Of a DNA stretch of 12,889 nt, positions 151-12,889 are shown piece after piece; position 1 is the first letter of the stretch; the number at the start of each line of letters is the position of its first letter. The stretch spans positions 1-12,889 of the forward strand of contig JABUSX010000197.1 in NCBI GenBank assembly GCA_021442545.1, in the 5' to 3' direction. A program made the position numbers and the translations under genes. The stretch comes from Eubacterium sp. (GTDB taxonomy: Bacteria > Bacillota > Clostridia > Lachnospirales > Lachnospiraceae). The notes below the pieces were generated by a model that had not been told where the DNA came from, made no database searches, and worked only from the letters and a program-made list of their open reading frames with translations.

Positions 151-162
151 GGAGAAATCCCT

Positions 163-390: not shown

Positions 391-404
391 GGATGAACCG
401 AAGA

Positions 405-437
405 CCCCCGGGCTGTACTGCAGCTCCGGGGGTTTTT
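405..437 (+). terminator. Rho-independent terminator closing the upstream operon
   Basis: CCCCCGG (405-411) pairs with CCGGGGG (426-432). The stem continues with GCTG (412-415) against CAGC (421-424) across one bulged T at 425, around a five-base loop. Five T residues follow immediately (433-437). This is a textbook intrinsic terminator, 14 bases after the HPr-like stop codon. It separates the transporter/HPr unit from the microcompartment operon. Confidence 0.93.
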
Positions 438-551
438 AGCAGAATGAACCATTGCCTGGCTTCCATGAAAGGTAATGAAAAAACGAATACCGGGAAGTCC
501 GTTTTTCATAAAACAATTTTCATTTGCAGGCACTTCAGATAAAACCAGAAT

Positions 552-567
552 TTGAAACAATTTTCAA
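552..567. promoter_or_regulatory. Short perfect inverted repeat, candidate operator
   Basis: TTGAAA (552-557) and TTTCAA (562-567) flank the four bases CAAT. The element includes the second copy of AACAATTTT and lies about 80 bases upstream of the predicted -35 box. It could bind an activator or repressor, or assist looping with the site near the start point. AT-rich palindromes of this size can occur by chance. Confidence 0.3.
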
Positions 568-645
568 CAGATAGATAATAATTTCAATTATTGACTGTAA
601 TAACTGTGAAAGGTGCTGAAAGTAGATAACAACAGCGTTCCTGCC

Positions 646-675
646 TTGACATTCAGGGCAGTGCGGTGATAGTAT
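646..675 (+). promoter_or_regulatory. Candidate sigma-A promoter of the microcompartment operon
   Basis: A perfect -35 box TTGACA lies at 646-651. An 18-base spacer leads to TAGTAT at 670-675, which matches four of six positions of the -10 consensus, including its first T-A and final A-T. Transcription would start near 682 and leave a leader of roughly 75 bases. The leader overlaps the GAACA/TGTTC inverted pair, a typical place for a repressor to act. The imperfect -10 box and slightly long spacer fit a regulated promoter. Confidence 0.6.
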
Positions 676-683
676 TCATACAT

Positions 684-716
684 GAACAATTTTAAAAATG
701 TAATTCACAAATGTTC
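684..716. promoter_or_regulatory. Candidate operator: inverted GAACA / TGTTC half-sites over the predicted start point
   Basis: GAACA at 684-688 and TGTTC at 712-716 form an inverted pair with centres 28 bases apart; each arm has AT-rich sequence on its inner side. The element lies immediately after the predicted -10 box, so a bound repressor would block initiation. GAACA-type half-sites are, as I recall, part of the operator of Bacillus DeoR, a SorC-family deoxyribonucleoside regulator. A SorC-family gene ends this locus, which makes it the obvious candidate ligand. The pairing is seen; the binding is inferred. Confidence 0.4.
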
Positions 717-758
717 CAAATGAGATAAACAACTTAGGATAAATTTAGGAGGAATCAC

Positions 759-1826
759 ATGAAAGCAATCGTAATGGAAAAGGTCAAAGATCTGAAGTAT
801 GTCGACGTGGATATGCCTACACCGAAAGATGATGAGGTTCTGATGCAAATTATGGCCGTTGGTGTCTGCGGTTCCGATATCCCGCGTCTCCTGGTTTACG
901 GTTCACATGTGCTTCCGATCATCCCGGGCCATGAATTTGCCGGCAAGATCATCGAAGTAGGAAAAGACGTAGAAGGCTGGAAGCCCGGCGACAAGGCAAG
1001 CGCTGCTCCGCTTCTTCCCTGCAACGAATGTGAATGGTGCAAGCAGGGTATCTATTCCCTCTGCGAAGGCTATATGTACTATGGTTCCCGCAATGACGGC
1101 GCCTATGCACAGTATCTCTGCGTAAAGGCTGCAAACCTGCTGCGCATCGATGCCGATACACCCTATGACTGGGGCGCAACACTGGATCCGGCCGCAAATG
1201 CCATCCATGCTTTCCTTCGCGGAAACGGCACCGGCGATGACATCTGCTGTGTCTACGGTCTTGGCGCGATCGGTCTCTTTGCCATTCAGTATGCTAAGGT
1301 TCTCGGCTGCGAAAAGATCATCGCTGTCGACGTTAACGATGACAAGCTGGCAGTTGCCAAAGAGTGCGGCGCAACCTTCACCGTCAACTCTCTGAAAGAG
1401 GATCCGGTCAAGGCAATCTGGGATTACACAGAAGGCCGCGGCGCAACCTTTACCTGCGATATGTCCGGTTTCCCGAGCGCTCAGGAACAGGCCATCCTTT
1501 CCACCGGCAAGATGGGTCGTGTCGTCTTCCTCGGCATCTCCCACAAGGGTCTGGAACTCAGTGCAGAAGCCGTTGACAACATTGAAAGATATCAGCTTTC
1601 CATCAACGGCAGCTGGAACTCCTTCTCGAATCCGTTCCCGGGCTTCGAATGGACAGAGGCTGCAAGACTGATGAACGAAAAGAAATTCAATCCGGAGCTG
1701 CTGATCTCTCATAAGCTTCTCCTTGAAGAACTTCCGGAAGTGTTCAAAAAGATCGATGCCAGAGACAAGAGCTTTGTTTACAACAAGATCATGTTCTATC
1801 CGAACGGCAAAGAGGAAGTCAAGTAA
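759..1826 (+). CDS. Zinc-dependent medium-chain dehydrogenase, GatD-like polyol-phosphate dehydrogenase
   Basis: 355 residues, full length for the family, with TAGGAGG seven bases before the ATG. Catalytic zinc ligands are visible as C37 (G-V-C-G-S-D) and H58-E59 (P-G-H-E-F). Structural zinc ligands are C88, C91, C94 and C102. The Rossmann glycine motif G-L-G-A-I-G is near residue 168, followed by an acidic residue in A-V-D-V-N, which favours NAD(H) over NADP(H). The segments A-P-L-L-P-C, Y-G-S-R-N-D-G and the N-G-S-W stretch near the C-terminus resemble galactitol-1-phosphate 5-dehydrogenase (GatD) more than threonine or sorbitol dehydrogenase. The expected reaction is oxidation of a polyol phosphate to a ketose phosphate, or the reverse. 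It is the first gene of the microcompartment operon and has no N-terminal cargo extension, so it may be cytosolic. The true substrate is unknown; a deoxy-polyol phosphate would fit the downstream aldolase. It could instead reoxidise NADH by reducing an aldehyde. Confidence 0.85.
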   Translation: MKAIVMEKVKDLKYVDVDMPTPKDDEVLMQIMAVGVCGSDIPRLLVYGSHVLPIIPGHEFAGKIIEVGKDVEGWKPGDKASAAPLLPCNECEWCKQGIYSLCEGYMYYGSRNDGAYAQYLCVKAANLLRIDADTPYDWGATLDPAANAIHAFLRGNGTGDDICCVYGLGAIGLFAIQYAKVLGCEKIIAVDVNDDKLAVAKECGATFTVNSLKEDPVKAIWDYTEGRGATFTCDMSGFPSAQEQAILSTGKMGRVVFLGISHKGLELSAEAVDNIERYQLSINGSWNSFSNPFPGFEWTEAARLMNEKKFNPELLISHKLLLEELPEVFKKIDARDKSFVYNKIMFYPNGKEEVK

Positions 1827-1868
1827 GAAGTCCGACACAGAACAGATATCAGAAAAAAGAGGCAAAAC

Positions 1869-2732
1869 ATGCTGGAGAAGAAAGAAATAGAAAATCTTGT
1901 CCGGGCCCATCTGGCAGAATATCTGCGCGGAAACGGCAGCACCGTAACCGGTGGTGCCGTTTCAGGCACGTCTGCGGGAACCGGAAAACGGAACTATATC
2001 GTTGCGGCGAACTGGAAGATGAACATGAGCTGGAAGGAAACAAAGAATTTCCTGGAAGCCATGAAAAAGGTCACGCTGCCGGATCATCTCAAGGCTGTCA
2101 TTTTTCCGCCTTATCCGTATCTGTCTCTTTTCCGCGACATGCTTCGCTATGACCGTTTCACCTACGGCGGTCAGGACGTGGCAAAGGAGGAAAAGGGTGC
2201 CTATACCGGCGAAGTCAGCGCTATGATGCTGGCCGATCTGGGATGCCGCTATTCGCTGACAGGCCATTCCGAGCGCCGCAGCTACTACGGAGATACGCCC
2301 GAGATCGTCGGCAAAAAGACGAAGGCGGCTCTTTCCTGGCAGCTCACCCCGATGGTCTGCATCGGCGAGACGCTGGATGAAAGAAAGAACGGGCTCTGGA
2401 AGGCCGTTCTGAAAACGCAGCTGGATGCCGTTTTTGCCGAAACCGGCGCGGACATCGCGAAATGCGTGATCGCCTACGAACCGGTCTGGGCGATCGGAAC
2501 GGGCGTGATCCCGACATCGCAGGAGATCCTTGAGACCCATACCTATGTATACAATACACTGGCATCCTATCTGAAAGGAAACGGAGCCGTTCCGCCCATT
2601 CTTTACGGCGGAAGCGTGAACGAAAAGAACGTGCGCGAGATCGCGGCGATCGATCATGTCGGCGGCTTCCTGATCGGAGGCGCAAGCCTGAAGGCCGACA
2701 CCTATGCGAAGATCATCAGCCTCGTAAGCTGA
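1869..2732 (+). CDS. tpiA: Triosephosphate isomerase with an N-terminal microcompartment-targeting-type extension
   Basis: 287 residues, about 38 longer than a normal TIM at the N-terminus. All catalytic residues are present: K50 (A-N-W-K-M-N), H133 (G-H-S-E-R-R) and E204 (A-Y-E-P-V-W-A-I-G-T-G). The phosphate-gripping Y-G-G-S-V and I-G-G-A-S-L motifs are also there. It should interconvert glyceraldehyde-3-phosphate and dihydroxyacetone phosphate. Residues 1-20 form a charged amphipathic helix (K-K-E-I-E-N-L-V-R-A-H-L-A-E-Y-L), followed by a Gly/Ser/Thr linker to about residue 38. This is the architecture of encapsulation peptides on BMC cargo. The gene starts 42 bases after the dehydrogenase with an AGAGG ribosome binding site. 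The context says it handles the triose phosphate released by the aldolase encoded downstream. It is presumably a dedicated paralogue in addition to a housekeeping glycolytic TIM, which I cannot see here. Confidence 0.93.
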   Translation: MLEKKEIENLVRAHLAEYLRGNGSTVTGGAVSGTSAGTGKRNYIVAANWKMNMSWKETKNFLEAMKKVTLPDHLKAVIFPPYPYLSLFRDMLRYDRFTYGGQDVAKEEKGAYTGEVSAMMLADLGCRYSLTGHSERRSYYGDTPEIVGKKTKAALSWQLTPMVCIGETLDERKNGLWKAVLKTQLDAVFAETGADIAKCVIAYEPVWAIGTGVIPTSQEILETHTYVYNTLASYLKGNGAVPPILYGGSVNEKNVREIAAIDHVGGFLIGGASLKADTYAKIISLVS

Positions 2733-2842
2733 AAGCAGCTTAGCCCGGTTCCTGAAGAAACCCGGAAAACGGAGGATAAGAACCGTAGGCAGGCGGAGCT
2801 GACAATGACAGAGATTTCAGACAGGATCAGTTAAAGGACAAC

Positions 2843-3550
2843 ATGAAGAATCCACTGACAAGAGATGAAATAAAAACAATAATTTCCCGGGTGGTGCACT
2901 ATTTCGTCCGGAAGAGAGAGCTGAAAGTCCGTGCCGGACGGGTGCTCTTTCTTGTACCCGAATATCCGATGGGATTAAAGCAGACGATCATGAGCTATGA
3001 TCTCTACGGCGAACTCGACGGGATCGATTTTGTTCTTGCAAAACCGGACCCCGATGTAGCCGGGATCTGCCGCGGAAAGATCTATCTGAAGGACGATCCC
3101 GAGGATATGCGGTGCGTATTTACGCTGCTTCCGGAATATGAAGAGATCAACATCTACACGCCTTCCCTGGATTTTCTCCGCGCACTGCGTGAAGGCCGGG
3201 AAGAGGATCTGATGGTGCGTGCGGCACTGTTTTTCCTGATGAACGGAAAGGTCGTGATCGTGCGTCTTCCGTACAGGGCAGGATCCCTGAAAGACGGGCG
3301 TTTTGCGAAGCAGCTGCGCGACCTGATGGATGATCTCTGGGAAATGGGCGTATCCTTCTCGGAGATGGATCCGCACTTCGGCGACGGTACACCGGAGAAG
3401 GTCGTTCTGGCCGCCGGTCTTGTGACGGAAGACCTTGTCGAGGAATATTACAGACGGGGATTCAGCAAGATCCGTGTGGACGATCATACGATCGTGACGC
3501 CTCTTGCCGCCGACCGCGCAAGAGAGCACGGGATACAGATCTCGAGGTAA
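2843..3550 (+). CDS. BMC-associated protein of unknown function, possibly flavoprotein-like (TIGR02536-type)
   Basis: 235 residues, start supported by AAAGGAC shortly upstream. I do not recognise a catalytic motif. The N-terminus is a helix rich in basic residues (about 1-28). Residues about 30-125 alternate strands and helices (V-L-F-L-V-P-E-Y, then a T-P-S-L-D-F-L segment). Residues about 126-150 contain A-A-L-F-F-L-M-N-G-K-V-V-I-V. The C-terminus holds G-F-S-K-I-R-V and then I-V-T-P-L-A-A-D-R-A-R-E-H-G-I. Similar T-P-L-A-x-D-x-A-R-E-x-G-I tails and the P-x-L-x-x-x-x-L / G-K-x-V-x pattern occur in uncharacterised proteins of firmicute ethanolamine and other BMC operons, with a flavoprotein-like fold. 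I cannot verify this without a search. The gene stands between the triosephosphate isomerase and aldehyde dehydrogenase genes with 110- and 152-base spacers. No signal peptide or membrane segment is evident. A role in cofactor handling or cargo assembly would be speculation. Confidence 0.5.
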   Translation: MKNPLTRDEIKTIISRVVHYFVRKRELKVRAGRVLFLVPEYPMGLKQTIMSYDLYGELDGIDFVLAKPDPDVAGICRGKIYLKDDPEDMRCVFTLLPEYEEINIYTPSLDFLRALREGREEDLMVRAALFFLMNGKVVIVRLPYRAGSLKDGRFAKQLRDLMDDLWEMGVSFSEMDPHFGDGTPEKVVLAAGLVTEDLVEEYYRRGFSKIRVDDHTIVTPLAADRAREHGIQISR

Positions 3551-3702
3551 AACGAATTTCAGATTTCATGCAAAAACCGTACAACAGTGGGCGGAAAAGC
3601 AGGAAAACAGAAATCCGGAGATGTACCATACCGATACAGGTATTTTGAAGTAAATTGGAACATAACTGATAACAGCAGACAGGATACAGGAGGAAATGAA
3701 AA
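3551..3702 (+). promoter_or_regulatory. 152-base spacer with a possible internal promoter and operator-like word
   Basis: This is the longest gap within the main operon. TTGAAG (3645-3650) and GATAAC (3668-3673) are 17 bases apart and could form a weak promoter. The spacer between them contains TTGGAACAT (3655-3663), the same 9-mer that occurs on the opposite strand at 711-719 in the main promoter region. A small inverted repeat, ATACC (3628-3632) and GGTAT (3639-3643), lies just upstream. AGGAGG at 3688-3693 serves the aldehyde dehydrogenase gene. Together these suggest a second, co-regulated entry point, but each element alone is weak. Confidence 0.3.
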
Positions 3703-5274
3703 ATGGGAATGTCACCTTCAGAGATATCGAAATTCATATCGGAAGTTGAGCAGAACCTGACAGAGCCGGAAGCGCTTTCCCGCTACGGCAACGGGCCTGT
3801 TGGCATGACGGATAAGGGTTCCGTGAAGCTTTCGACCTACGGAAATCCGAGCGTCGTTCTGCCGGGCGGCAACAGATTCGGCAACCCGACCGTTGAACTT
3901 CCGAAGGAAAAAGCTCCGGCCGATGACAGGTATTATGCCGGTCTGGACCTCGGAAAGAACGGAATCTTCCGTGATGCGGAAGACGCTGTTCAGGCGGCCG
4001 TCAGAGCTCAGAAAGAACTGATGACGCGTACGCTGGAAGAACGCGAGACCTACATTCAGGCTATGCGCCGTTCCTGCCTCGAGAATGCAGAACTGCTTTC
4101 CCGTATGGCCTGTGAAGAGACCGGTTACGGCCACGTTGAAGATAAGATCGCGAAGCATGTTCTCGTTGCCGAGAAGACACCGGGAACGGAAGATCTGAAG
4201 ACGATCGCCAAGAGCGGCGACAAGGGTCTGATGCTGACAGAGATGGCTCCCTTCGGCGTCATCGGTGCGATCACACCTTCCACGAACCCGACGGCTACCG
4301 TAATCAACAATGCGATCGGCATGATTGCAGCCGGAAATGCCGTTGTCTACAATCCGCATCCCGCGGCAAAGAAATGCTCGCTGACAGCCGTGAAGCTGAT
4401 GAACCAGGCGATCGTTTCCGCCGGCGGTCCGGACAACCTGCTCTGCGCTCCGGAGAATCCGACGATGCAGACCAGCAGCGTGATCATGAACCATCCGGTC
4501 ATCCGTCTTCTTGTCGTGACGGGCGGCGAAGCCGTTGTCAGTGTTGCGATGAAGACCGGTAAGAAAGTTATTGCGGCCGGCCCCGGAAATCCCCCTGTTG
4601 TTGTTGATGCAACGGCCGATCTGGATAAGGCGGCCCGCGGCATCGTCGCAGGTGCATACTACGAGAACACGATTCTCTGTATCGCAGAGAAAGAGATCCT
4701 TGCGGAAGCTTCGATCGCTGACGAGCTGATCCGCGGTCTTGTCCGTGAAGGCGCCTACCTGGTCAACGAGCAGGAACTGAAGCAGGTCTGCGACCTCGTC
4801 CTGCTGAAGTCGCCGGAAGGCAAATATTCTCCGAACAGAAAATATGTCGGACACAATGCCTCCAAGATCCTTCGGGATGCAGGCATCATGTTCGAAGGCG
4901 AAGCGAAGATCGTCCTTGCAGACGTTCCGTTCGAACATCCGCTGGTCATGACCGAAATGCTGATGCCGGTCATTCCGATCACGCGCTGCAAAGATGTGGA
5001 TGACTGTATCGAGAAGGCAGTTATTGCAGAAAACAACTGCCATCACACAGCCATGATGTATTCCGAGAGCGTTTCCAACCTGACAAAGATGGGACGCGCG
5101 ATCGACACCACGATCTTCATCAAGAATGCACCGTCCTACGCCGGACTCGGCTACGAAGGAGAAGGCTATACGACTCTTTCGATCGCGACTCCGACCGGCG
5201 AAGGCCTGACATCGGCAAAGAACTTCACACGTTCACGCCGCTGCACACTTTATGATGCATTCCGGATCGTTTAA
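3703..5274 (+). CDS. CoA-acylating aldehyde dehydrogenase (PduP/EutE family), microcompartment cargo
   Basis: 523 residues, with AGGAGG nine bases before the ATG; an ATG at 3696 is out of frame. The core matches PduP/EutE: T-P-S-T-N-P-T-A-T at about residues 190-198, the G-P-G-N-P-P-V-V-V segment, and catalytic C326 in T-I-L-C-I-A-E-K-E. The reaction is aldehyde + CoA + NAD+ to acyl-CoA + NADH; acetaldehyde is the expected substrate because the operon encodes a deoxyribose-phosphate aldolase. The N-terminal 70 residues are extra: a predicted amphipathic helix (P-S-E-I-S-K-F-I-S-E-V-E) typical of encapsulation peptides, then a low-complexity linker. The linker holds three related words, R-Y-G-N-G-P-V (27-33), T-Y-G-N-P-S-V-V-L-P (45-54) and R-F-G-N-P-T-V-E-L-P (58-67). 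It is the shell's central oxidising enzyme, and its NADH must be recycled, probably by the electron-transfer protein encoded 24 bases downstream. Family confidence is high; substrate chain length is inferred. Confidence 0.94.
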   Translation: MGMSPSEISKFISEVEQNLTEPEALSRYGNGPVGMTDKGSVKLSTYGNPSVVLPGGNRFGNPTVELPKEKAPADDRYYAGLDLGKNGIFRDAEDAVQAAVRAQKELMTRTLEERETYIQAMRRSCLENAELLSRMACEETGYGHVEDKIAKHVLVAEKTPGTEDLKTIAKSGDKGLMLTEMAPFGVIGAITPSTNPTATVINNAIGMIAAGNAVVYNPHPAAKKCSLTAVKLMNQAIVSAGGPDNLLCAPENPTMQTSSVIMNHPVIRLLVVTGGEAVVSVAMKTGKKVIAAGPGNPPVVVDATADLDKAARGIVAGAYYENTILCIAEKEILAEASIADELIRGLVREGAYLVNEQELKQVCDLVLLKSPEGKYSPNRKYVGHNASKILRDAGIMFEGEAKIVLADVPFEHPLVMTEMLMPVIPITRCKDVDDCIEKAVIAENNCHHTAMMYSESVSNLTKMGRAIDTTIFIKNAPSYAGLGYEGEGYTTLSIATPTGEGLTSAKNFTRSRRCTLYDAFRIV

Positions 5275-5298
5275 AGAAAGCGTGGATGACAGAACATC

Positions 5299-6633
5299 AT
5301 GAATAAGATGATTTTAGACCAGATCAAAGAGGCAGGGATCGTCGGCGCAGGCGGCGCCGGATTCCCGACGCATGCCAAGCTCAACTGCGAGCCGGAATAC
5401 ATTCTTGCGAACTGCGCCGAGTGCGAGCCGCTGATCAAGTCCGACAAGCATCTGATGGAGCGTCATGCGGCGGAGATCGTCGCCGGCATGGAAACGGTGG
5501 TCTCCTGCACGGGAGCGGCACATGGTGTGATTGCTCTCAAGAGTAAAAATACGGAAGCTGTCCGCGCACTGGAAGCTGCTGCAGCAGGAACGAGAGTTCA
5601 GATCCATCAGCTGGAAAACTACTATCCGGCCGGTGACGAGCAGCAGATCATCTACGAAGTGACAGGACGCAGGGTTCCTGTAGGGGACATTCCGATCAAG
5701 GCGGGCTGCGTGGTCATGAACGGACAGACGCTCTTCCAGGTGGCACAGGCCGTCAAAGGCATCCCGGTCACATCCCGTATGGTGACGGTGACGGGTGCCG
5801 TTGCAGAACCGTTTACGACAGAAGTTCCGATCGGAACGGCAGTATCCTATCTGCTTGACCTCGCCGGAGGCCCCACGATTGATGATTATGTGATCGTGCT
5901 CGGCGGTCCGCTGATGGGACGTGTTGTACAGTCTGCAGACGGTGAATTTGTAACAAAAACAACGAACGGCGTGATCGTTCTTCCGAAGGACAACGTTCTG
6001 ATCAAGCTTAAGACCGATGATCTCGAGCATCAGCTCAAGATCGCACGCTCGGCCTGCTGCCAGTGCAATTACTGCACGATGATCTGCCCCAGAAACGCAC
6101 TCGGGCTTCACGTGCAGCCGCATAAGATCATGCAGGCACTGACGATCGGAAACGGCGAACTTCTCGGCGACGGCAGCATCGCGCTTGGGTGCTGCAACTG
6201 CGGACTCTGCACCTACGTAGGCTGCAACATGGGTCTGACCCCGAGCCGCTTCATCTCCGAAGTGCGTGCGAAGCTGCTTGCACAGAAGGTGAAGAACCGT
6301 CTTGAGATGGGCAAGGTCGATCTCTTCCGCGATGAGATCAAAGTCGATTCTCATCGTGTGATCGGCAGAATGAATCTGACGGCCTACGATGTGGAAGTAC
6401 CTTTCGTGGAAAATATCTGCAGACCTCGTGCCGTACGGATCCTGCTGAAACAGCATATCGGCGCTCCCTGCGAGCCGGCCGTAAGCGAAGGCAGCTTCGT
6501 CACGAAGGGACAGGTCGTCGGACAGGTTCCGGAAAAAGCACTTGGTGCGCCGGTTCATGCCTCGATCAGCGGCAGAGTCGTATCGGCAACAAAGGACCAT
6601 ATCGATATCCTTGAAGAACAGGAGGTGAGGTAA
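5299..6633 (+). CDS. PduS/RnfC-like iron-sulfur flavoprotein (NADH-linked electron transfer)
   Basis: 444 residues. The N-terminus carries the RnfC/NuoF-type glycine-rich nucleotide/flavin motif G-A-G-G-A-G-F-P-T. Two cysteine clusters follow: C253-x2-C256-x2-C259-x3-C263 and C298-x2-C301-x2-C304-x4-C309, each able to hold a [4Fe-4S] centre (C254 and C299 are extra neighbours). The C-terminal 60 residues (V-S-E-G-S-F-V-T-K-G-Q-V-V-G) look like a barrel-sandwich hybrid domain, as in RnfC. PduS of the propanediol system reduces cobalamin; no B12-dependent enzyme is visible here, so a role in reoxidising NADH and passing electrons on is more likely. The next gene, one base away, encodes a shell protein of PduT type with an iron-sulfur-ligand cysteine, the natural partner. 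The ribosome binding site is weak (no AGGAGG near 5299), so translation may be coupled to the gene 24 bases upstream; ATG 5308 is an alternative start. Confidence 0.9.
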   Translation: MNKMILDQIKEAGIVGAGGAGFPTHAKLNCEPEYILANCAECEPLIKSDKHLMERHAAEIVAGMETVVSCTGAAHGVIALKSKNTEAVRALEAAAAGTRVQIHQLENYYPAGDEQQIIYEVTGRRVPVGDIPIKAGCVVMNGQTLFQVAQAVKGIPVTSRMVTVTGAVAEPFTTEVPIGTAVSYLLDLAGGPTIDDYVIVLGGPLMGRVVQSADGEFVTKTTNGVIVLPKDNVLIKLKTDDLEHQLKIARSACCQCNYCTMICPRNALGLHVQPHKIMQALTIGNGELLGDGSIALGCCNCGLCTYVGCNMGLTPSRFISEVRAKLLAQKVKNRLEMGKVDLFRDEIKVDSHRVIGRMNLTAYDVEVPFVENICRPRAVRILLKQHIGAPCEPAVSEGSFVTKGQVVGQVPEKALGAPVHASISGRVVSATKDHIDILEEQEVR

Positions 6634-6634
6634 G

Positions 6635-7183
6635 ATGGGAACAGCCATTGGTTCACTGGAACTGAACAGCATAGCAACAGGTGTGATCGCCGGTGATGCG
6701 ATGCTGAAGGCAGCAGATGTCAGCCTGATCATGGCGCAGCCCACCTGCCCGGGGAAATTCATCATCCTGGTCGCAGGGGATACGGCAAGCGTGGAATCGT
6801 CGGTCAAGGCGGGCGCCGCAGAAGGCGGAGAACACGTTGTAGATTACACGATCATTCCGAGCATTGATCCGGAAGTCATTCCGGCAATTACGCGGAGCAC
6901 CGCACCGGAGCAGAAGGAAGCGGTTGCCGTAGCCGAGACATTCTCTCTTACGGCGGCGATCCTCGCAGCGGATTACGCGGTCAAGAGCTCATTGATCGAT
7001 CTCATCGAAGTCCGGCTCGGACGGGGTCTCGGAGGAAAATCCTTCGTGATCATGACCGGCGCCGTGGCCGATGTCCGCAGTGCAGCGGATTCGATCCGGA
7101 GTGAGCTGAAAAAGAGCGGCATGGTGCTTAATATCGTTATCGTTCCGCACCTGCATGAAGATATGTATCAGGCAATCCTGTAA
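6635..7183 (+). CDS. Tandem-domain BMC shell protein (BMC-T, PduT-like) with iron-sulfur cysteine
   Basis: 182 residues with two BMC domains, about 1-90 and 93-182, which assemble as a trimer forming a pseudohexamer in the facets. In the first domain the segment A-Q-P-T-C-P-G-K-F puts a cysteine at residue 38. This corresponds to Cys38 of PduT, where three cysteines around the pore ligate one [4Fe-4S] cluster. The second domain ends in I-V-P-H-L-H-E-D-M, the usual BMC C-terminal pattern. GGAGGTGAGG lies directly before the ATG, inside the end of the PduS-like gene; the stop and start are one base apart, so the two products are probably made in step. The inferred job is moving electrons from the lumenal PduS-like protein across the shell. 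The cluster itself cannot be seen from sequence, but the residue and motif are conserved exactly. Confidence 0.93.
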   Translation: MGTAIGSLELNSIATGVIAGDAMLKAADVSLIMAQPTCPGKFIILVAGDTASVESSVKAGAAEGGEHVVDYTIIPSIDPEVIPAITRSTAPEQKEAVAVAETFSLTAAILAADYAVKSSLIDLIEVRLGRGLGGKSFVIMTGAVADVRSAADSIRSELKKSGMVLNIVIVPHLHEDMYQAIL

Positions 7184-7204
7184 AGCAAAAGGAGAACAAA
7201 CGAC

Positions 7205-7558
7205 ATGATCAAAGAAGCACTGGGAATGGTTGAAACAAAGGGACTCGTCGGTTCTGTGGAAGCAGCCGATGCAATGGTCAAGGCAGCGAACGTCCGCCTG
7301 ATCGGCAAGGAAGAGATCGGCTCCGGTCTTGTCACCGTTATGGTTCGCGGCGATGTCGGCGCAGTCAAGGCTTCCGTTGAAGCCGGCGGTGCAGCGGCAA
7401 AGCGCGTTGGTGAGCTGATTTCCGTACACGTGATCCCGCGTCCCCATGAAGATGTGGAACGCATTCTTCCGCAGGAACCCGCTTTTGTTGAAGAAGCCCC
7501 CGCAGAAGCTCCCGCAAAAGCTGCTCCGAAGGCAAGAGCGACAAAGAAGACGAAATAA
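7205..7558 (+). CDS. Hexameric BMC shell protein (BMC-H, PduA-like) with a C-terminal Ala/Lys tail
   Basis: 117 residues, start supported by AAAGGAG. Residues 1-92 form one BMC domain close to PduA (A-L-G-M-V-E-T-K-G, then [11 protein letters not shown], then V-I-P-R-P-H-E-D-V). It tiles the shell facets as a hexamer. The pore loop reads E-I-G-S-G-L with S40, as in PduA; the rim residue 37 is Glu instead of the Lys found in PduA and in the two sister copies. A tail of about 24 residues, rich in Ala, Pro and Lys ([10 protein letters not shown]), is absent from the two following copies and could reach the lumen or cytosolic face. The gene is followed by a hairpin before the second copy. Confidence 0.96.
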
Positions 7559-7597
7559 ATTCCGGGTCGGAAAGAAGCAGTTCTGAAAAGAATCCAC

Positions 7598-7619
7598 GGG
7601 GCTGCAATCAGACAGCCCC
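7598..7619 (+). other. Intercistronic hairpin between the first and second BMC-H genes
   Basis: GGGGCTG (7598-7604) pairs perfectly with CAGCCCC (7613-7619) around an eight-base loop. No T-run follows directly, so it is unlikely to be a full intrinsic terminator. In this position it may be an RNA-processing or 3' stability element, or a partial attenuator, that separates expression of the upstream enzymes from the two abundant shell genes. Confidence 0.5.
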
Positions 7620-7672
7620 AGGAAATATGAAACAGGAAACCATTATTTTTACAAAATAAGGAGATAAAAAAC

Positions 7673-7951
7673 ATGGAAAAAGAAGCTCTGGGAATGGTTG
7701 AGACAAAGGGTCTTGTCGGCGCGATCGAGGCAGCTGATGCTATGGTTAAGGCAGCTAATGTTCGCCTGATGGGCAAAGAAAAAGTCGGTGCAGGCCTTGT
7801 TACCGTTATGGTACGCGGCGATGTCGGTGCTGTTAAAGCTTCCGTCGAAGCAGGCGGCGCAGCAGCAAAGCGCGTTGGCGAACTGGTTTCCGTACATGTC
7901 ATTCCGCGTCCTCATTCAGACGTTGAAGGCATTCTTCCGAAGGCAGAATAA
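7673..7951 (+). CDS. Hexameric BMC shell protein (BMC-H, PduA/EutM-like), second copy
   Basis: 92 residues, the usual PduA length, preceded by AAGGAGAT. It is a single BMC domain nearly identical to the neighbours: [10 protein letters not shown] start, [11 protein letters not shown] core and [14 protein letters not shown] end. The pore loop is K-V-G-A-G-L, so pore position 40 is Ala instead of the Ser seen in PduA and in the first copy; K37 is retained. It is preceded by a 114-base gap holding a hairpin and has a strong ribosome binding site, so it may be a major facet protein. It and the third copy are likely products of tandem duplication. Confidence 0.96.
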
Positions 7952-7991
7952 TTCTGAACAGAAAGAATCCCGTTAAGGAGGATGAATACAA

Positions 7992-8273
7992 ATGATTGTT
8001 GAAGCATTGGGAATGATTGAAACAAAGGGACTCGTCGGTGCAATCGAAGCTTCGGATGCAGCCGTTAAGGCAGCGGATGTCCGTCTGATCGGCAAGGAAA
8101 AAGTCGGCGCCGGACTGGTCACGATCATGGTTCGCGGTGAAGTTGCAGCCGTTAAATCTGCTGTCGAAGCAGGCGGCGCAGCAGCAAAACGCGTCGGCGA
8201 ACTGGTTTCCGTGCATGTTATTCCGCGTCCCCATTCAGACGTTGAAGGCATTCTGCCGAACGTGGAGGCATAA
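7992..8273 (+). CDS. Hexameric BMC shell protein (BMC-H, PduA/EutM-like), third copy
   Basis: 93 residues preceded by the very strong TAAGGAGGAT (7975-7984). It is a single BMC domain with pore loop K-V-G-A-G-L (Ala40). It differs from the second copy at scattered positions, for example I-V-E-A at the start, A-S-D-A-A near 20-24, and V-R-G-E-V-A-A-V in the core. The C-terminal [14 protein letters not shown] is identical. Mixed hexamers, or mixed facets of the two, are plausible. The aldolase gene follows after 32 bases. Confidence 0.96.
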
Positions 8274-8305
8274 CTTACGAGTACATTGTTTGATAGGAGA
8301 TAACT

Positions 8306-9157
8306 ATGGATATTGAAAAGCTTATTGCTGAGATCACAGACGAAATATACAACAAGGTTTCTTCCGATACGAGCTTCCTGAGCGCAGGAAAGACCGGCGG
8401 AAAGAGCCTTGCAAAATACATCGACCACACTCTTCTGAAGGCCAATGCAACAGAAGCACAGGTCATCAAACTCTGCCAGGAAGCACGCGACAACCAGTTC
8501 ATGTCTGTCTGCGTCAACACCTGCTACGTTCCGCTCTGCGCAAAGATGCTGGCCAACTCCGGCGTCAAGGTCTGCTGTGTTGTCGGTTTCCCGCTGGGAG
8601 CCATGAGCACGGCCGGCAAGGTTGCCGAAGCTGTTGATGCGATCAAGAACGGCGCAACAGAAGTAGATATGGTCATCAATGTCGGCGCTATCAAGAGCGG
8701 CAACTGGCACTTTGTAAAAGACGATATCGAAGCTCTCGCAATGGCCTGCCGCGGCAAAGCTCTGCTGAAGGTCATCATTGAGACCTGTCTGCTGACAGAC
8801 GAAGAAAAAGTCAAAGCCTGCACAGTCTCCAAACTGGCCGGCGCTGATTTCGTCAAGACATCTACCGGATTCTCCACCGGCGGCGCAACCGTCGAAGATA
8901 TCCGCCTGATGCGTCAGACCGTAGGCCCGGATATGGGTGTTAAGGCTTCCGGCGGCGTCCGCACATACGAAGATGCGATCGCCATGATCGAAGCCGGTGC
9001 AAGCCGCATCGGTACCAGCAACGGTATCTCCATCGTTGCCGGCCAGAAGAATTCCGCGGATACAGCCGGCCATGTCTGCATCGGCTGCGGAAACTGCGGC
9101 AAGGCTATGTCCTGCCCGTCCGGCAAGGTCGACATCGTTGTTGCCAACAATTATTAA
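8306..9157 (+). CDS. deoC: Deoxyribose-phosphate aldolase (DERA) with cargo-type N-terminus and cysteine-cluster C-terminus
   Basis: 283 residues against about 220 for a usual class I DERA, with TAGGAG before the ATG. The catalytic set is complete: D121 in [10 protein letters not shown], Schiff-base K184 in F-V-K-T-S-T-G, and K213 in V-K-A-S-G-G-V-R-T. The reaction is 2-deoxyribose-5-phosphate to acetaldehyde + glyceraldehyde-3-phosphate. Residues 1-33 are extra: an amphipathic helix ([14 protein letters not shown]) and a short linker, as in encapsulation peptides. Residues after about 245 are also extra and contain C258-x2-C261-x2-C264-x5-C270-P, which looks like half of a ferredoxin cluster site and is not part of the ordinary DERA fold. 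It is the signature enzyme of sugar-phosphate-utilising BMCs and sits between the shell hexamer and vertex genes. The aldolase call is firm; the role of the cysteine tail is unknown. Confidence 0.96.
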
Positions 9158-9164
9158 GAGAGGT
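9157..9164 (+). promoter_or_regulatory. Ribosome binding site that fixes a TTG start
   Basis: AGAGAGGT starts at the last base of the aldolase stop codon and lies about nine bases before TTG 9173-9175. No ATG in the right frame gives a complete pentamer shell protein, whereas translation from this TTG gives the conserved first strand Y-A-A-K-I-I-G. The site therefore decides the start of the next gene. Confidence 0.7.
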
Positions 9165-9172
9165 ATCAGATT

Positions 9173-9487
9173 TTGTACGCGGCAAAAATTATCGGTACGG
9201 CTGTCTGTACCTGTAAAGACAGGAAACTGACCGGATTCAAACTTCTTGTCGTGCAGCCGATCAGTCTGCTGACCCTTGAAAACGAGGGAAAGCCGGTGGT
9301 TGCCGTCGATTCCGTGGACGCGGGTGAGAACGAGATCGTTCTGGTCGTCGGGGGAAGCTCGGCGCGCCAGACGGATCTCACGACGAACACGCCCGTGGAT
9401 GCCACGATCATGGCCGTTATCGATTATATCGATATCAACCACAAGAAGGTGTTTGAAAAATATCCGGGAGCAGGAGGGAATGCCTGA
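9173..9487 (+). CDS. Pentameric BMC vertex protein (BMC-P, EutN/CcmL family), first copy
   Basis: 104 residues from a TTG start supported by AGAGAGGT upstream. The family pattern is clear: A-K-I-I-G-T-A-V-C-T-C-K first strand, G-F-K-L-L-V-V-Q-P, V-A-V-D-S-V-D-A-G, V-L-V-V-G-G-S-S-A-R, and the C-terminal helix A-T-I-M-A-V-I-D-Y-I-D. Pentamers of this family cap the twelve vertices of the shell. The last stop base is also the first base of the isomerase start codon (TGATG), so the two are translationally coupled. The TTG start may lower its output, in line with the low copy number of vertex proteins. Confidence 0.94.
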   Translation: MYAAKIIGTAVCTCKDRKLTGFKLLVVQPISLLTLENEGKPVVAVDSVDAGENEIVLVVGGSSARQTDLTTNTPVDATIMAVIDYIDINHKKVFEKYPGAGGNA

Positions 9488-9948
9488 TGAAAATAGCAAT
9501 CGGCGCCGATCACGGCGGCTATGAAATGAAAGAAAGAATGAAGGAGTATATCACCAAGGAGCTCGGTCATGAATGTGTCGACTTCGGAACCTGCAGCACA
9601 GAGCGCTGTGACTATCCGGATTATGCATTCATGGTAGCTTCTGCGGTATCCTCCCACAAATGCGACTGCGGCATCATGATCGATGCTGTCGGAATCGGCT
9701 CATCCGTAATGGCCAACAAGGTTCCGGGCGTACGCGCCGCCGTTGCAAACGAGATCTATTCCGCCCGCAACAGCAAACTCCACAACGGCTGCAACATGCT
9801 CTGCATGGGAAGCCTGATCATCGGAGACGGCGTGGCGAAGGAAGTCATCAAGATCTGGCTGGAGACCGAGCTTTCCGGCGACAGAAACATCCAGCGCGTG
9901 AAACAGATCTGTGATATTGAAGCCAGAATTCTTGGCTGCAACCGCTGA
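9487..9948 (+). CDS. RpiB/LacA/LacB-family sugar-phosphate isomerase with Asp at the catalytic-Cys position
   Basis: 153 residues, normal for the family. The start A-I-G-A-D-H-G-G-Y-E-M-K, the A-N-K-V-P-G-V-R-A-A stretch, the E-I-Y-S-A-R-N-S helix and the H-N-G-C-N-M-L-C-M-G loop identify RpiB/LacAB. In E. coli RpiB the base is a Cys in the C-G-T-G-x-G loop; here the loop is I-D-A-V-G-I-G with D66 in that place. LacA subunits also have I-D-A at this position, as I recall, and some microcompartment-linked RpiB-like proteins appear to share it. The expected chemistry is aldose-ketose isomerisation of a phosphorylated sugar, probably not plain ribose-5-phosphate. It overlaps the upstream vertex gene by one base and is followed by two more vertex genes, so it belongs firmly to the shell operon. 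No obvious cargo peptide is present. Confidence 0.9.
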   Translation: MKIAIGADHGGYEMKERMKEYITKELGHECVDFGTCSTERCDYPDYAFMVASAVSSHKCDCGIMIDAVGIGSSVMANKVPGVRAAVANEIYSARNSKLHNGCNMLCMGSLIIGDGVAKEVIKIWLETELSGDRNIQRVKQICDIEARILGCNR

Positions 9949-9963
9949 GCGGAAGGGTAGATT

Positions 9964-10260
9964 ATGCAGACTGCAAAAGTCATAGGGACTGTGGTAGCAA
10001 CAAAAAAAGACAAGCGGCTGGAAGGCATCCGTCTGATGGTGATCCAGCCGCAGAATGCGGCAGGAAAAGATGAAGGAACGCCGATCGTGGCCTGCGACGT
10101 CGTCGGAAGCGGGATCGGCGAGACCGTCATCTATGCCAAGAGCAAGGAGGGCGCCTTCGCCCTTCCGGACAAGAATGCCTGCTGCGATGCGGCTATTACG
10201 GCAATCATTGACAGTTTCTATACACTGGAAGGCGGAAACAGAAGGGTGGAAGGATGCTGA
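9964..10260 (+). CDS. Pentameric BMC vertex protein (BMC-P, EutN/CcmL family), second copy
   Basis: 98 residues, preceded by GGAAGGGT. It shows A-K-V-I-G-T-V-V-A-T-K-K-D, G-I-R-L-M-V-I-Q-P, V-A-C-D-V-V-G-S-G-I-G-E-T-V and the helix D-A-A-I-T-A-I-I-D-S-F. It has an adjacent cysteine pair (A-C-C-D) before the last helix, which the other two copies lack. The 3' end overlaps the next vertex gene by seven bases, so the two are coupled. Confidence 0.95.
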   Translation: MQTAKVIGTVVATKKDKRLEGIRLMVIQPQNAAGKDEGTPIVACDVVGSGIGETVIYAKSKEGAFALPDKNACCDAAITAIIDSFYTLEGGNRRVEGC

Positions 10261-10565
10261 TCGCAAAAATCACCGGAAATATCGTTTCTACTGTGAAACA
10301 TCCGGATTATCAGAACCACAAGCTGTTTATCGTCAGGGCCGTTGATCTCGAAGGGAAAGAATACGGTCCGGAGGTAGTCTGTGTGGACGGCTGTGAAACA
10401 CCGGCAGGTGTCGGTGATTATGTCCTCGTGGATGAAGAGGGCGGCGGTGCCCGGGATCTGGCCTGTATCGACCATACAGGACCCGTGGAACACACCGTGG
10501 CAGCCGTGATCGACTACATCAACACAAACCAGGGCGGCTTCAGTCAGTTCGCCCGGGAGGAATGA
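10254..10565 (+). CDS. Pentameric BMC vertex protein (BMC-P, EutN/CcmL family), third copy
   Basis: 103 residues, starting inside the end of the second copy with GGTGGAAGG as ribosome binding site. Family features are A-K-I-T-G-N-I-V-S-T-V-K, H-K-L-F-I-V-R-A-V, V-V-C-V-D-G, G-V-G-D-Y-V-L-V and the helix H-T-V-A-A-V-I-D-Y-I. It is the most diverged of the three in the middle loops (D-E-E-G-G-G-A-R). Three vertex paralogues suggest that not all vertices are identical. The ribosome binding site of the following acetyltransferase lies within this gene's last codons. Confidence 0.95.
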   Translation: MLIAKITGNIVSTVKHPDYQNHKLFIVRAVDLEGKEYGPEVVCVDGCETPAGVGDYVLVDEEGGGARDLACIDHTGPVEHTVAAVIDYINTNQGGFSQFAREE

Positions 10566-10566
10566 C

Positions 10567-11580
10567 ATGAGCATCATGGCAAAAGTAATGGAGCGCGCAG
10601 CCGGAAAAGGCTGCTCGATCCTGCTTCCTGAAAGCTATGACCCGCGCGTCGTAGAAGCGGCGGAAAAGATCCATAAGCAGAATCTGGCGAAGATCATTCT
10701 TCTGTCGGACGGGGAAAATCCGATCCCGAACGAAAAGGCACTGCTGGATGCCGGCGTTGTGATCCTGGATTACAAACACACGCCGTCATTCGAAGAGATG
10801 GCGCAGGGCTTTTACGAACTGCGGAAGGCGAAAGGTGTAACGCCGGAAAAAGCCAGAGAAGCCATGAAGGATCCGATGGCTTACGCGTGCATGATGGTGC
10901 GCACGGGTCTTGCGGACGGACTGGTTTCCGGAGCGGCACATTCCACAGGTGATACGCTTCGTCCGGCTTTGCAGATCGTGAAGACCGGAGACGGGATCAA
11001 AACCGTTTCGGCCTACTTCCTGATCGATGTTCCGGACTGCGAATACGGAAACAACGGCGTCTTCCTTTTTGCGGACAGCGGACTCGTAGAGTTCCCGACG
11101 CCGGAACAGCTTGCGGACATCGCAGTAGCTTCCGCACGCAGCTTTGAGCAGATCACGCAGGAAGAGCCGATCGTGGCTCTGCTGACCTACTCGACAAAGG
11201 GAAGCGCGAAGAACGAACGTCTGAAGCCGGTTTTAAAGGCACTTGAGATCATCCGGGAAAAATATCCGAACCTGAAGGTGGACGGAGAACTCCAGCTCGA
11301 TGCGGCTATAGACAGAAAAGTCGCAGACATGAAGGCAAAAGGCAGCATCGTAGCCGGCAATGCCAATGTTCTCGTCTTCCCGGATCTGAACGCCGGAAAT
11401 ATCGGCTACAAGCTCGCACAGCGGCTCGGAAAAGCGGAAGCCTACGGACCCATGACACAGGGGCTGCGGCGTCCTGTCAACGATCTTTCCAGAGGCTGCT
11501 CCGCAGACGACATTGTCGGTGTTGTGGCACTGACCTGTCTGCAGTCGGACAAGGAGCCTGACGGTAACAAAACAAAATAA
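10567..11580 (+). CDS. pta: Phosphate acetyltransferase (Pta, PTA_PTB family)
   Basis: 337 residues, the size of single-domain Pta/EutD. Characteristic stretches are G-L-A-D-G-L-V-S-G-A-A-H-S-T, T-Y-S-T-K-G-S-A, G-E-L-Q-L-D-A-A and, near the end, G-P-M-T-Q-G-L-R-R-P-V-N-D-L-S-R-G. The reaction is acetyl-CoA + phosphate to acetyl-phosphate + CoA. In the locus it would regenerate CoA for the aldehyde dehydrogenase and supply acetyl-phosphate for ATP formation by an acetate kinase, which is not in the window. Many BMCs use the unrelated PduL enzyme; this one uses the Pta fold and there is no PduL gene here. The start ATG comes one base after the vertex gene stop, with GGGAGG upstream. No clear cargo extension precedes the first conserved strand (S-I-L-L-P-E). 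It is the last gene of the main operon. Confidence 0.95.
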   Translation: MSIMAKVMERAAGKGCSILLPESYDPRVVEAAEKIHKQNLAKIILLSDGENPIPNEKALLDAGVVILDYKHTPSFEEMAQGFYELRKAKGVTPEKAREAMKDPMAYACMMVRTGLADGLVSGAAHSTGDTLRPALQIVKTGDGIKTVSAYFLIDVPDCEYGNNGVFLFADSGLVEFPTPEQLADIAVASARSFEQITQEEPIVALLTYSTKGSAKNERLKPVLKALEIIREKYPNLKVDGELQLDAAIDRKVADMKAKGSIVAGNANVLVFPDLNAGNIGYKLAQRLGKAEAYGPMTQGLRRPVNDLSRGCSADDIVGVVALTCLQSDKEPDGNKTK

Positions 11581-11611
11581 CGACGTGTCTGAAAACAGAA
11601 CATGAACGAAT

Positions 11612-11643
11612 CGCGGGAGCCTGCCGACGGCATGGATCCCGCG
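11612..11643. other. Hairpin after the last operon gene, without a T-run
   Basis: CGCGGGA (11612-11618) pairs with TCCCGCG (11637-11643); inside it TGCC (11622-11625) pairs with GGCA (11629-11632) around GAC. It starts 32 bases after the pta stop and is GC-rich, but no run of T follows. It may be a 3' end-stabilising structure, a Rho-associated or weak terminator, or part of the leader of the regulator gene. Confidence 0.45.
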
Positions 11644-11658
11644 GAGCGTCTATAAGGG

Positions 11659-11740
11659 AATCGCATACGGAAAAGTACGAAATCGCATACGGAAAAGTAC
11701 GAAATCGCATGCGGAAAAGTACGAAATCGCATACGGAAAA
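11659..11740. repeat. 22-bp tandem repeat array upstream of the regulator gene
   Basis: Four head-to-tail copies with a period of exactly 22 bp. The word TCGCATACGGAAAAGTAC begins at 11661 and 11683, returns with one change (CATGCGG) at 11705, and begins a fourth time at 11727, where the unit breaks off after CGGAAAA. Successive units are joined by GAAA. Two degenerate relatives follow (CATGCGGAAATAA near 11753 and CCGCATATGAAAAA near 11773). A 22-bp period is close to two helical turns, so the same face of DNA would be presented each time. The array ends about 80 bases before the regulator start. It looks like a set of protein-binding sites (iteron-like) or a young slippage expansion. Confidence 0.9.
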
Positions 11741-11819
11741 TCAGGATAAAAACATGCGGAAATAAACAGGAACCGCATATGAAAAACAATAAAGAAAGCT
11801 GCAGGAGAATATAAGTATC

Positions 11820-12818
11820 ATGGCCAGAGAAATGGGAAAACAGGAGCTGCTGGTGCAGGTTGCCCGCCTTTATTATGAATATGATCTGAATCAGAATGAT
11901 ATTTCAAAAAAGGTTAACCTGTCGAGGTCATACGTATCCAAACTTCTGACGGAAGCCAGAGAAAGCGGCATCGTCAAGATCAAGATCATTGATCCGATTC
12001 AGGAAGAGACGGCTCTGGAGCGCAGTGTCCGGGAACATTTTCATCTGCAGAAGGCGATCATCGTGCCGGATGGTCAGAAAATGGAACAGCGGTATAAAGT
12101 TTTCTCGGCAGCGGCGGATTATCTGGAATCGATCATTGACGACGAAGATATCCTCGGTTATGTCTGGGGTGAAACAATTTACGAATGTGCCAGCATTATG
12201 CGCCAGATGGACGGACTCGGAGGCGTGACTACCGTACAGATGTGCGGAGGAGTCACCAATACCAGCCAGAGGGTCTTTGTTTCAGAGATATCGCAGCTAT
12301 TTTCCCGTAAGCTGAACAGCTTTGGCTATGAACTGCCCTTCCCGGCCGTAACGTCCATGAAAAGCGTCAAGAACAGCATCGAGAACGAGCCCTCTCTGCG
12401 AAAGATCTATGAACTGGCGGAAAAGGCAAATATCATGCTGATGACAACGGGCGGCTGGCATGACCGTACGACATTGATCCGTTCCGGTTACCTCACGGAC
12501 GATGAGATCCGGCATCTGAACGAAAAAGGAGCCGTCGGAGATATTGCCGCTCATTTCATCGATGCAAAAGGCAATGTCTGCGATCCGGATCTGGATGAAC
12601 GTACCGTATCCGTTCCTCTGGATACAATCAAAAACTGCCCGATCCGCATCGGCGTTGTGGCCGGCACCGATAAGGCAAAGAGTACACTCGGTGCACTGCG
12701 GGGCGGAATCTTCAGCGTTCTTATTACCCACGAATCTATGATCGAGGAGATCCAGAAACTGGATCCTTCCGTTCGTTCCGCCCGGAATAAAGACAAATAC
12801 AGCGGGAAAGATTCCTGA
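11820..12818 (+). CDS. SorC-family (Bacillus DeoR-type) sugar-phosphate-responsive transcriptional regulator
   Basis: 332 residues, normal for SorC-family regulators. The N-terminus has a helix-turn-helix at about residues 24-46 (N-Q-N-D-I-S-K-K-V-N-L-S-R-S-Y-V-S-K), followed by the linker E-S-G-I-V-K-I-K-I. The rest is the SorC sugar-binding domain: D-I-L-G-Y-V-W-G-E-T near 105-114, M-C-G-G-V-T-N near 141, and L-M-T-T-G-G-W near 205. Members usually bind phosphorylated sugars and form tetramers. Bacillus DeoR of this family responds to deoxyribose-5-phosphate, which is the substrate of the aldolase encoded here. Control of the promoter near 646-716 is therefore the best guess. It lies in the same orientation as the operon, separated by 239 bases with a hairpin and a tandem array, so it may have its own promoter and autoregulate. 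GGAG at 11804-11807 is somewhat far from the ATG, so the start could be the second Met (residue 5). Confidence 0.92.
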   Translation: MAREMGKQELLVQVARLYYEYDLNQNDISKKVNLSRSYVSKLLTEARESGIVKIKIIDPIQEETALERSVREHFHLQKAIIVPDGQKMEQRYKVFSAAADYLESIIDDEDILGYVWGETIYECASIMRQMDGLGGVTTVQMCGGVTNTSQRVFVSEISQLFSRKLNSFGYELPFPAVTSMKSVKNSIENEPSLRKIYELAEKANIMLMTTGGWHDRTTLIRSGYLTDDEIRHLNEKGAVGDIAAHFIDAKGNVCDPDLDERTVSVPLDTIKNCPIRIGVVAGTDKAKSTLGALRGGIFSVLITHESMIEEIQKLDPSVRSARNKDKYSGKDS

Positions 12819-12889
12819 ATAAACGTGGCAGAAATCGAATTACAGATCTGAAAAGAACAGAAAGCAGGGAGCGTACCGGAAAACCGGAG
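12819..12889 (+). other. Downstream non-coding end of the window
   Basis: 71 AT- and purine-rich bases follow the regulator stop codon. I see no clear terminator, start codon with ribosome binding site, or repeat in them. Confidence 0.5.

Follow-up and report, generated by a model that had tools for sequence, protein, structure and literature searches.

The SPU (sugar-phosphate-utilizing) type of bacterial microcompartment was named in Axen 2014 for its combination of a DeoC-type aldolase, an RpiB-like protein and an aldehyde dehydrogenase (AldDH); the Atribacteria loci described there carry PduS and, in one of them, triosephosphate isomerase (TIM). Sutter 2021 defined the class by pfam01791 plus pfam02502, reported over 280 loci from 26 phyla, and suggested the breakdown of DNA products as their role. 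In the sections of both papers available to us, the RpiB-like protein is called RpiB and taken as a ribose 5-phosphate (R5P) isomerase, and those sections hold no statement that it is without its cysteine. In the open-access literature (subscription papers and preprints being outside this scope), we found no study with an SPU experiment in its title or abstract opening. Here, we analyzed a 12,889-nucleotide stretch from Eubacterium sp. (contig JABUSX010000197.1, “the window”) with an SPU-type operon at positions 759 to 11580. The class is on record from 2014 and 2021; what is new is that the RpiB-like protein carries Asp and Val in place of Cys66 and Thr68 of RpiB, which we term the Asp type, as opposed to Cys-type RpiB. 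Judging from residues and gene neighborhoods, we consider it rather likely that this compartment breaks down 2-deoxyribose-5-phosphate (dR5P) and, jointly, that its RpiB-like protein is not an R5P isomerase.

By gene content, the operon is an ordinary member of the published class. The defining pair, a pfam01791 aldolase and a pfam02502 RpiB-like protein, lies within one shell locus together with a CoA-acylating AldDH and all three shell classes (BMC-H, BMC-T, and BMC-P), and PduS and TIM are present as in the Atribacteria loci. Compared with the published loci, as far as the available sections describe them, it differs in having phosphate acetyltransferase (Pta) without PduL, a PduT-type BMC-T, and a GatD-like dehydrogenase in front. 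The 15 coding genes lie on the + strand in the order GatD-like dehydrogenase, TIM, a 235-amino-acid (aa) protein, AldDH, PduS, BMC-T, three BMC-H, deoxyribose-phosphate aldolase (DERA), BMC-P, RpiB-like protein, two BMC-P, and Pta. Each has a start and a stop and no internal stop; open reading frames make up 95% of the stretch, and neighboring genes are −7 to 152 bp apart. The source assembly, a metagenome-assembled genome (MAG), spans 1.96 Mb in 480 contigs, and our analysis of the locus was confined to window positions 1 to 12889. Near relatives include proteins of Faecalicatena contorta and Extibacter muris. A human-microbiome survey, in the part available to us, found subtype SPU4 in gut clostridia, and our guess from such relatives is that the window is SPU4 as well.

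An earlier note on this DNA had described a complete SPU-class operon here, and most of that description was borne out. Profile searches found five BMC domains (one double-domain BMC-T and three BMC-H; PF00936) and EutN_CcmL in three proteins (PF03319), the same shell inventory that the note had given. The DERA, AldDH, Pta, TIM, RpiB-like, and GatD-like genes are open frames where it had placed them, with Pfam or NCBIfam matches to DeoC, Aldedh, PTA_PTB, TIM, LacAB_rpiB, and zinc-dependent medium-chain dehydrogenase/reductase (MDR) families. Its gene list was correct for the genes named and omitted PduS and the 235-aa protein; a SorC/DeoR-type regulator lies beyond its coordinates and was not named there. 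The absences it reported also held, since two PduL queries gave a best E value of 0.77, in antisense, and none of the 15 operon genes encodes a diol dehydratase, a glycyl-radical enzyme, or an ethanolamine lyase. No support was found for reading the RpiB-like gene product as a functioning isomerase of the known kind, since it has other residues at the positions of the catalytic Cys and Thr.

The protein belongs to the RpiB family by both model and fold, scoring above the TIGR01120 cutoff with a predicted structure that reproduces the RpiB fold and says nothing about mechanism. Compared with the RpiB of PDB 3he8, to which the fold match gives 45% identity, it shares the fold and the sugar-binding and ring-opening residues, and it differs at Cys66 (Asp), Thr68 (Val), position 72 (Ser), and Arg110 (lost). 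Asp66 was found in 118 of its 120 nearest homologues, with Cys in 1 and the region missing in 1. The name ribose 5-phosphate isomerase B is attached to 18 of the 120, every one of them Asp type, which flags a misnaming in the databases. At the thresholds used, five positions split the two types: 66 (Cys versus Asp), 68 (Thr versus Ala or Val), 72 (Ile, Met, or Val versus Ser), 95 (varied versus Asn), and 110 (Arg versus Gly or other). Among 34 Asp-type rows, Asp66 and Ser72 were invariant (34/34 each), and position 68 was Ala or Val in 32 and Thr in 2. Arg110, which we matched to phosphate-binding Arg113 of Mycobacterium tuberculosis RpiB by alignment offset, was kept in 4 of the 34, versus 94% of 47 Cys-type rows; the window has Leu there. 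In a tree built without the five split positions, a single branch, supported at 98/88, set the Asp-type rows apart from the others (few columns, bootstrap not settled, unrooted).

Other parts of the pocket are retained. Asp8, His9, Tyr43, His99, Asn100, Arg133, and Arg137 were kept in 33/33 Asp-type loci; His99 is the ring-opening residue, and Arg133 and Arg137 bind phosphate. According to the available parts of PMC3755991 and PMC4783025, mutation of the Cys kills LacB activity (measured with D-ribose), Thr67Ala of LacB lowers it about 20-fold, and His96 of LacAB is linked to ring opening. These sources also report that a Trypanosoma cruzi RpiB Cys mutant is dead, that Leishmania RpiB Cys69Ser is dead on R5P yet active with D-allose, and that Glu75 serves as the base in M. 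tuberculosis RpiB. From these mutants and the retained residues, the Asp type keeps most of the sugar-phosphate pocket and the ring-opening His without the proton-transfer pair.

The closest parallel to Asp66 is LacA of galactose-6-phosphate isomerase (4lfk_A), in which Asp likewise replaces the catalytic Cys. This raises an explanation that we hold to be unlikely, somewhat more so than either catalytic role considered below: that the Asp-type protein is a noncatalytic partner which holds DERA in the core or senses dR5P, like the Cys-less LacA half of LacAB. It would fit the second putative LacAB pocket, which lacked substrate density (PMC3755991, in the part available), and the fusion and adjacency with DERA reported below. 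The LacAB Cys sits in the LacB subunit, in contrast to the single RpiB-like gene per region in all 21 regions of our second sample that have one. Moreover, a mere scaffold would not need the seven substrate-site residues found in 33/33 loci, nor Asp66 and Ser72 in 34/34 rows.

We then compared genomic neighborhoods. The first sample comprised 80 loci from named genomes, the best-scoring of at least 591 stretches when compared with the window RpiB-like protein; 33 were Asp type and 47 Cys type. Shell genes were searched up to 10 kb on either side with models from the window's own shell proteins, so that truncated or divergent shells count as absent. They were found near 24/33 Asp-type loci, in at least nine phyla, versus 0/47 Cys-type loci (Fisher P = 2.4e-13; the rows are related), and DERA was found near 26/33 versus 0/47. 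The two genes were fused in 5 of these 26 and adjacent or fused in 19. As this way of choosing favors similarity to the window protein, we drew a second sample by EutN alone, searching 400 genomes from a single phylum, the one to which Levilinea belongs. Thirty were positive, and we read 38 stretches from 28 genomes, leaving out a short EutN fragment (G359 C124) and genomes G345 and G337; one stretch (L225) is from the same genome as L045 of the first sample. The RpiB family occurred in 21/38 regions, Asp type in 21/21, and DERA occurred in those same 21 regions and in 0/17 others. DERA adjoined the Asp-type gene in 16 of 18 readable cases (3 of the 21 DERAs were not read by motif). By these neighborhoods, the Asp type is a largely microcompartment-linked RpiB branch without the catalytic residues, and it is tied to the DERA step. 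The R5P isomerase reading gave the SPU signature gene a reaction without an evident place in deoxyribose breakdown; a distinct, DERA-tied branch removes this contradiction from the proposed chemistry.

Searches of 299 genomes of the family and 16 of the genus yielded, besides the window's own, 29 and 21 RpiB matches that were read out. All were Cys type, so the Asp type looks sporadic within its group. A separate R5P isomerase was present in 32 of the 33 Asp-type genomes (Cys-type RpiB in 24, RpiA in 12). Given the replaced Cys and Thr, the linkage to shell genes and DERA, and these separate isomerases, the label “R5P isomerase” for the SPU RpiB is probably wrong. We think it improbable that the literature reading applies here, with a standard SPU locus, a working R5P isomerase, and substitutions of no consequence. 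The protein does score above the NCBIfam rpiB cutoff, and Axen 2014 and Sutter 2021, in the sections available, use that name, but the enzymes discussed above depend on the Cys for activity with R5P or ribose, and nearly all of these genomes hold a separate enzyme for R5P.

The aldolase itself showed no sign of a new substrate. No position separated 45 compartment-type from 20 plain DERA rows at thresholds of 85% and 15%, and Asp121 and Lys213 were kept in 65/65 rows (Lys184 lies within the motif used to pick rows). SPU DERAs often have an additional four-Cys stretch. In the window and its clostridial relatives it is C-terminal, present in 77/96 homologues with an N-terminal extension and 3/23 without (one more was not scored by extension). 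In Chloroflexota and others it is N-terminal: 16/26 first-sample DERAs of other groups have at least four Cys within the 80 residues that precede the aldolase domain, and 15/18 readable second-sample DERAs have them in the N-terminal part. AldDH N-terminal parts, taken as a control, had at least four in 0/21 (stretches of 0 to 67 aa, shorter than those of the DERAs). The Pfam Fer4 model did not match the window DERA, while PF12838 or PF00037 is precomputed on some homologues. The stretch is a possible Fe-S or zinc site, and our literature listing returned no paper on it in SPU DERAs.

Since the pocket and His are kept, DERA shows no position that marks the compartment type, and the two genes are fused or neighbors, we propose that the Asp-type protein handles dR5P, with ring opening as the first candidate. 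It would bind dR5P, which is without the O2 that Thr68 would contact, and open the furanose ring for DERA, e.g., as a ring-opening anomerase in which Asp66 would be the base acting on the anomeric hydroxyl and His99 the acid acting on the ring oxygen. This is our leading mechanism and still a minority one, less likely than not on its own. Downstream, by family assignment, AldDH would convert acetaldehyde to acetyl-CoA and Pta would convert acetyl-CoA to acetyl-phosphate, the compartment's own TIM would form dihydroxyacetone phosphate, and PduS with the PduT-type shell protein would pass electrons out of the compartment. More broadly, and tentatively, SPU compartments of at least nine phyla may contain an unrecognized RpiB-derived nonisomerase that handles dR5P for DERA, and DERA may have gained a four-Cys metal module in parallel, at opposite ends by lineage.

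We give about the same limited credence as to ring opening to the view that the Asp type is an aldose-ketose isomerase with Asp66 as its base, converting another sugar phosphate to the aldolase substrate, possibly after polyol-phosphate oxidation by the GatD-like enzyme. The seven pocket residues kept in every Asp-type locus would suit it, as would the GatD-like gene that heads the operon and the MDR dehydrogenase that adjoins DERA-like genes in congeners. Yet most rows have also lost Arg110 and the proton-shuttle residue Thr68, nothing in DERA points to a different substrate, and dR5P is not isomerizable by RpiB chemistry because it has no C2 hydroxyl. The GatD-like gene also had no counterpart among the 28 further SPU loci in which shell genes or DERA were found (blastp, E of 1e-8, up to 10 kb each side). 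The idea of the earlier note that a polyol phosphate enters through this gene is thus weakened, the more so as the protein falls far below the GatD equivalog cutoff; the congener neighbors still speak for it. A reading by analogy with erythritol breakdown, in which TIM-like and RpiB-like isomerases act on tetrose phosphates, was rejected: the window TIM lies above the cutoff of the model for genuine TIM and reaches 87 of the 240 bits required by the erythrulose-4-phosphate isomerase model.

Several observations weigh against a dR5P compartment with a nonisomerase RpiB. According to PMC5975929 (in the part available), dR5P is 99.8% furanose, and phosphorylated furanoses open quickly unaided (40 to 100 per second for R5P), so ring opening should not limit DERA. 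Asp66 could act as a base by analogy with Glu75 of M. tuberculosis RpiB, and the Leishmania Cys69Ser enzyme kept activity with D-allose; both are also precedents for an Asp-type isomerase. Neither a further RpiB nor an RpiA was found in the window's own MAG, and one KSB1 MAG (L019) is the sole genome of the 33 without a separate R5P isomerase; both cases would be in keeping with a working isomerase, but the window's MAG, in which acetate kinase was not found either, may be incomplete. DERA was not in view in 7/33 Asp-type loci, and no shell gene was found in 9/33. In the window's fragmented assembly, neither DeoB nor pyrimidine-nucleoside phosphorylase was found, which leaves a deoxynucleoside route without support there. 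The RbsA/RbsB-like genes and ribokinase directly upstream of the SPU operon of Pseudogracilibacillus (L013) count in favor of the dR5P reading and point to free pentose as the entry, but this ribokinase context occurred in only 1/28 SPU loci. An ABC transporter of uncertain substrate lies upstream in L010 only. The regulator past pta has a Cys aligned to the Lys that we take to be the dR5P effector site of Bacillus subtilis DeoR, and we therefore rejected it as evidence for induction by dR5P; it also scores below the DeoR (Bacillus) equivalog cutoff. In the available part of the DeoR literature, dR5P is bound covalently. Finally, two congeners (G303 and G310) have a Cys-type RpiB in the neighborhood of a DERA-like gene whose catalytic residues are altered.

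These congener clusters break a strict pairing of the Asp type with DERA, and they may be satellites. Both (L156, G303 C100; L157, G310 C4) have a Cys-type RpiB, a class II aldolase, and further sugar genes, and one also has an MDR dehydrogenase and a DhaK-like kinase (names from sequence reading). Their DERA-like proteins have a Cys tail and, as read from sequence, an altered catalytic Asp and second Lys. The DERA-like protein of L157 has a targeting-like N terminus and lies in a cluster with TIM, RpiB, and the class II aldolase; those of L154 (G310 C132) and L156 have a similar N terminus and lie beside an MDR dehydrogenase. No shell genes were found on the contigs of L156 and L157. The lone DERA of L154 (5795-7796), 69% identical to the window's, has an N-terminal helix and a Cys tail and lies beside the divergent MDR dehydrogenase and a malic-enzyme-like gene; it is possibly a satellite cargo gene. 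A different kind of shell locus in G303 (L155, C132) combines TIM, PduS, and a PduT-like shell protein with a PduL-like gene and a tandem pair of DERA-like genes, and its contig gave no RpiB match. A shell locus with an Asp-type RpiB, AldDH, and PduL beside a LUD-domain gene (L006, 636-4967) showed no DERA in 14.3 kb, its left end being the contig end.

The N-terminal stretches of AldDH and DERA are more amphipathic than shuffled sequences. In helix stretches picked by eye, the hydrophobic moment was reached by a fraction of 0.0006 of shuffles for AldDH and 0.006 for DERA; TIM (0.17) and the 235-aa protein (0.095) were only suggestive. The genome's other TIM lies on a separate contig (C220), and acetate kinase was not found in the assembly, which is fragmented and may be incomplete. 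An electron route through the shell by PduS and PduT has been proposed for propanediol compartments. The window likewise has PduS adjoining a PduT-type BMC-T with the CPGKF Cys, presumably the cluster-binding residue, but, unlike those compartments, no B12 enzyme. A blastp search detected no PduS in any of the first sample's 33 Asp-type loci; in the second sample, PduS was seen in 1/21 DERA regions (L246).

Features of the window, with the matches or alignments on which each assignment is based
Feature	Coordinates	Strand	Basis
GatD-like zinc MDR dehydrogenase (355 aa) at the head of the operon	759..1826	+	Pfam ADH_N/ADH_zinc_N; NCBIfam GatD 265.2 bits vs cutoff 550; closest PDB 4a2c GatD
TIM with ~40-aa N-terminal extension (putative encapsulation peptide)	1869..2732	+	Pfam TIM from residue 44; TIGR00419 above cutoff
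235-aa eut_hyp-like protein	2843..3550	+	Weak C-terminal TIGR02536 match; 6 homologues at E 0.001, counting itself
CoA-acylating AldDH (PduP/EutE type), amphipathic N terminus	3703..5274	+	NF011927 636.7 bits vs cutoff 403
PduS/RnfC-type FMN and Fe-S protein	5299..6633	+	Complex1_51K, SLBB, Fer4_17, RnfC_N
BMC-T, PduT type; CPGKF Cys is residue 38 (6746-6748)	6635..7183	+	Closest PDB 3nwg, 3pac, 3n79 PduT; CPGKF/CPGKY aligned
BMC-H with C-terminal extension	7205..7558	+	PF00936 98.9 bits
BMC-H	7673..7951	+	PF00936 100.7 bits
BMC-H	7992..8273	+	PF00936 96.5 bits
DERA, amphipathic N terminus, Cys-rich C-terminal tail	8306..9157	+	TIGR00126 296.9 bits vs cutoff 117.3; Asp121, Lys184, Lys213 present
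DERA tail CX2CX2CX5CP, residues 258-271, putative Fe-S or metal site	9077..9118	+	Tail in 81/120 nearest homologues, including the window's own
BMC-P (EutN)	9173..9487	+	PF03319 92.6 bits
RpiB-like protein, Asp type	9487..9948	+	PF02502 167.5 bits; TIGR01120 149.0 bits vs cutoff 138.65; model pLDDT 95.8
DAVGIGS, residues 66-72 of RpiB-like protein (CGTGxG(I/M/V) in Cys-type RpiB)	9682..9702	+	Alignments
BMC-P (EutN)	9964..10260	+	PF03319 89.5 bits
BMC-P (EutN)	10254..10565	+	PF03319 61.6 bits
Pta	10567..11580	+	TIGR00651 358.3 bits vs cutoff 311.2
SorC/DeoR-type regulator, 239 bp past pta	11820..12818	+	NF053881 268.8 bits vs cutoff 420; closest PDB 8r7y DeoR

Upstream of the operon, window positions 1 to 440 hold the end of a gene whose product reads like a sugar-binding protein but matches no Pfam family, followed by a 75-aa frame with no family assignment. 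By eye, a C-rich/G-rich hairpin followed by a T run lies at about 400 to 435; it was absent from a hairpin scan that allowed loops of 3 to 8. A search with the 235-aa protein gave six matches and no function. Its C-terminal segment has motifs (ITE..V, ITPLA) that we take to resemble the N terminus of EutQ, and a segment of this kind is also fused ahead of long Asp-type RpiBs. A 232-aa protein without a Pfam match, perhaps a double-stacked BMC-T, occurs in 17/28 SPU loci (e.g., L065, 5838-6536).

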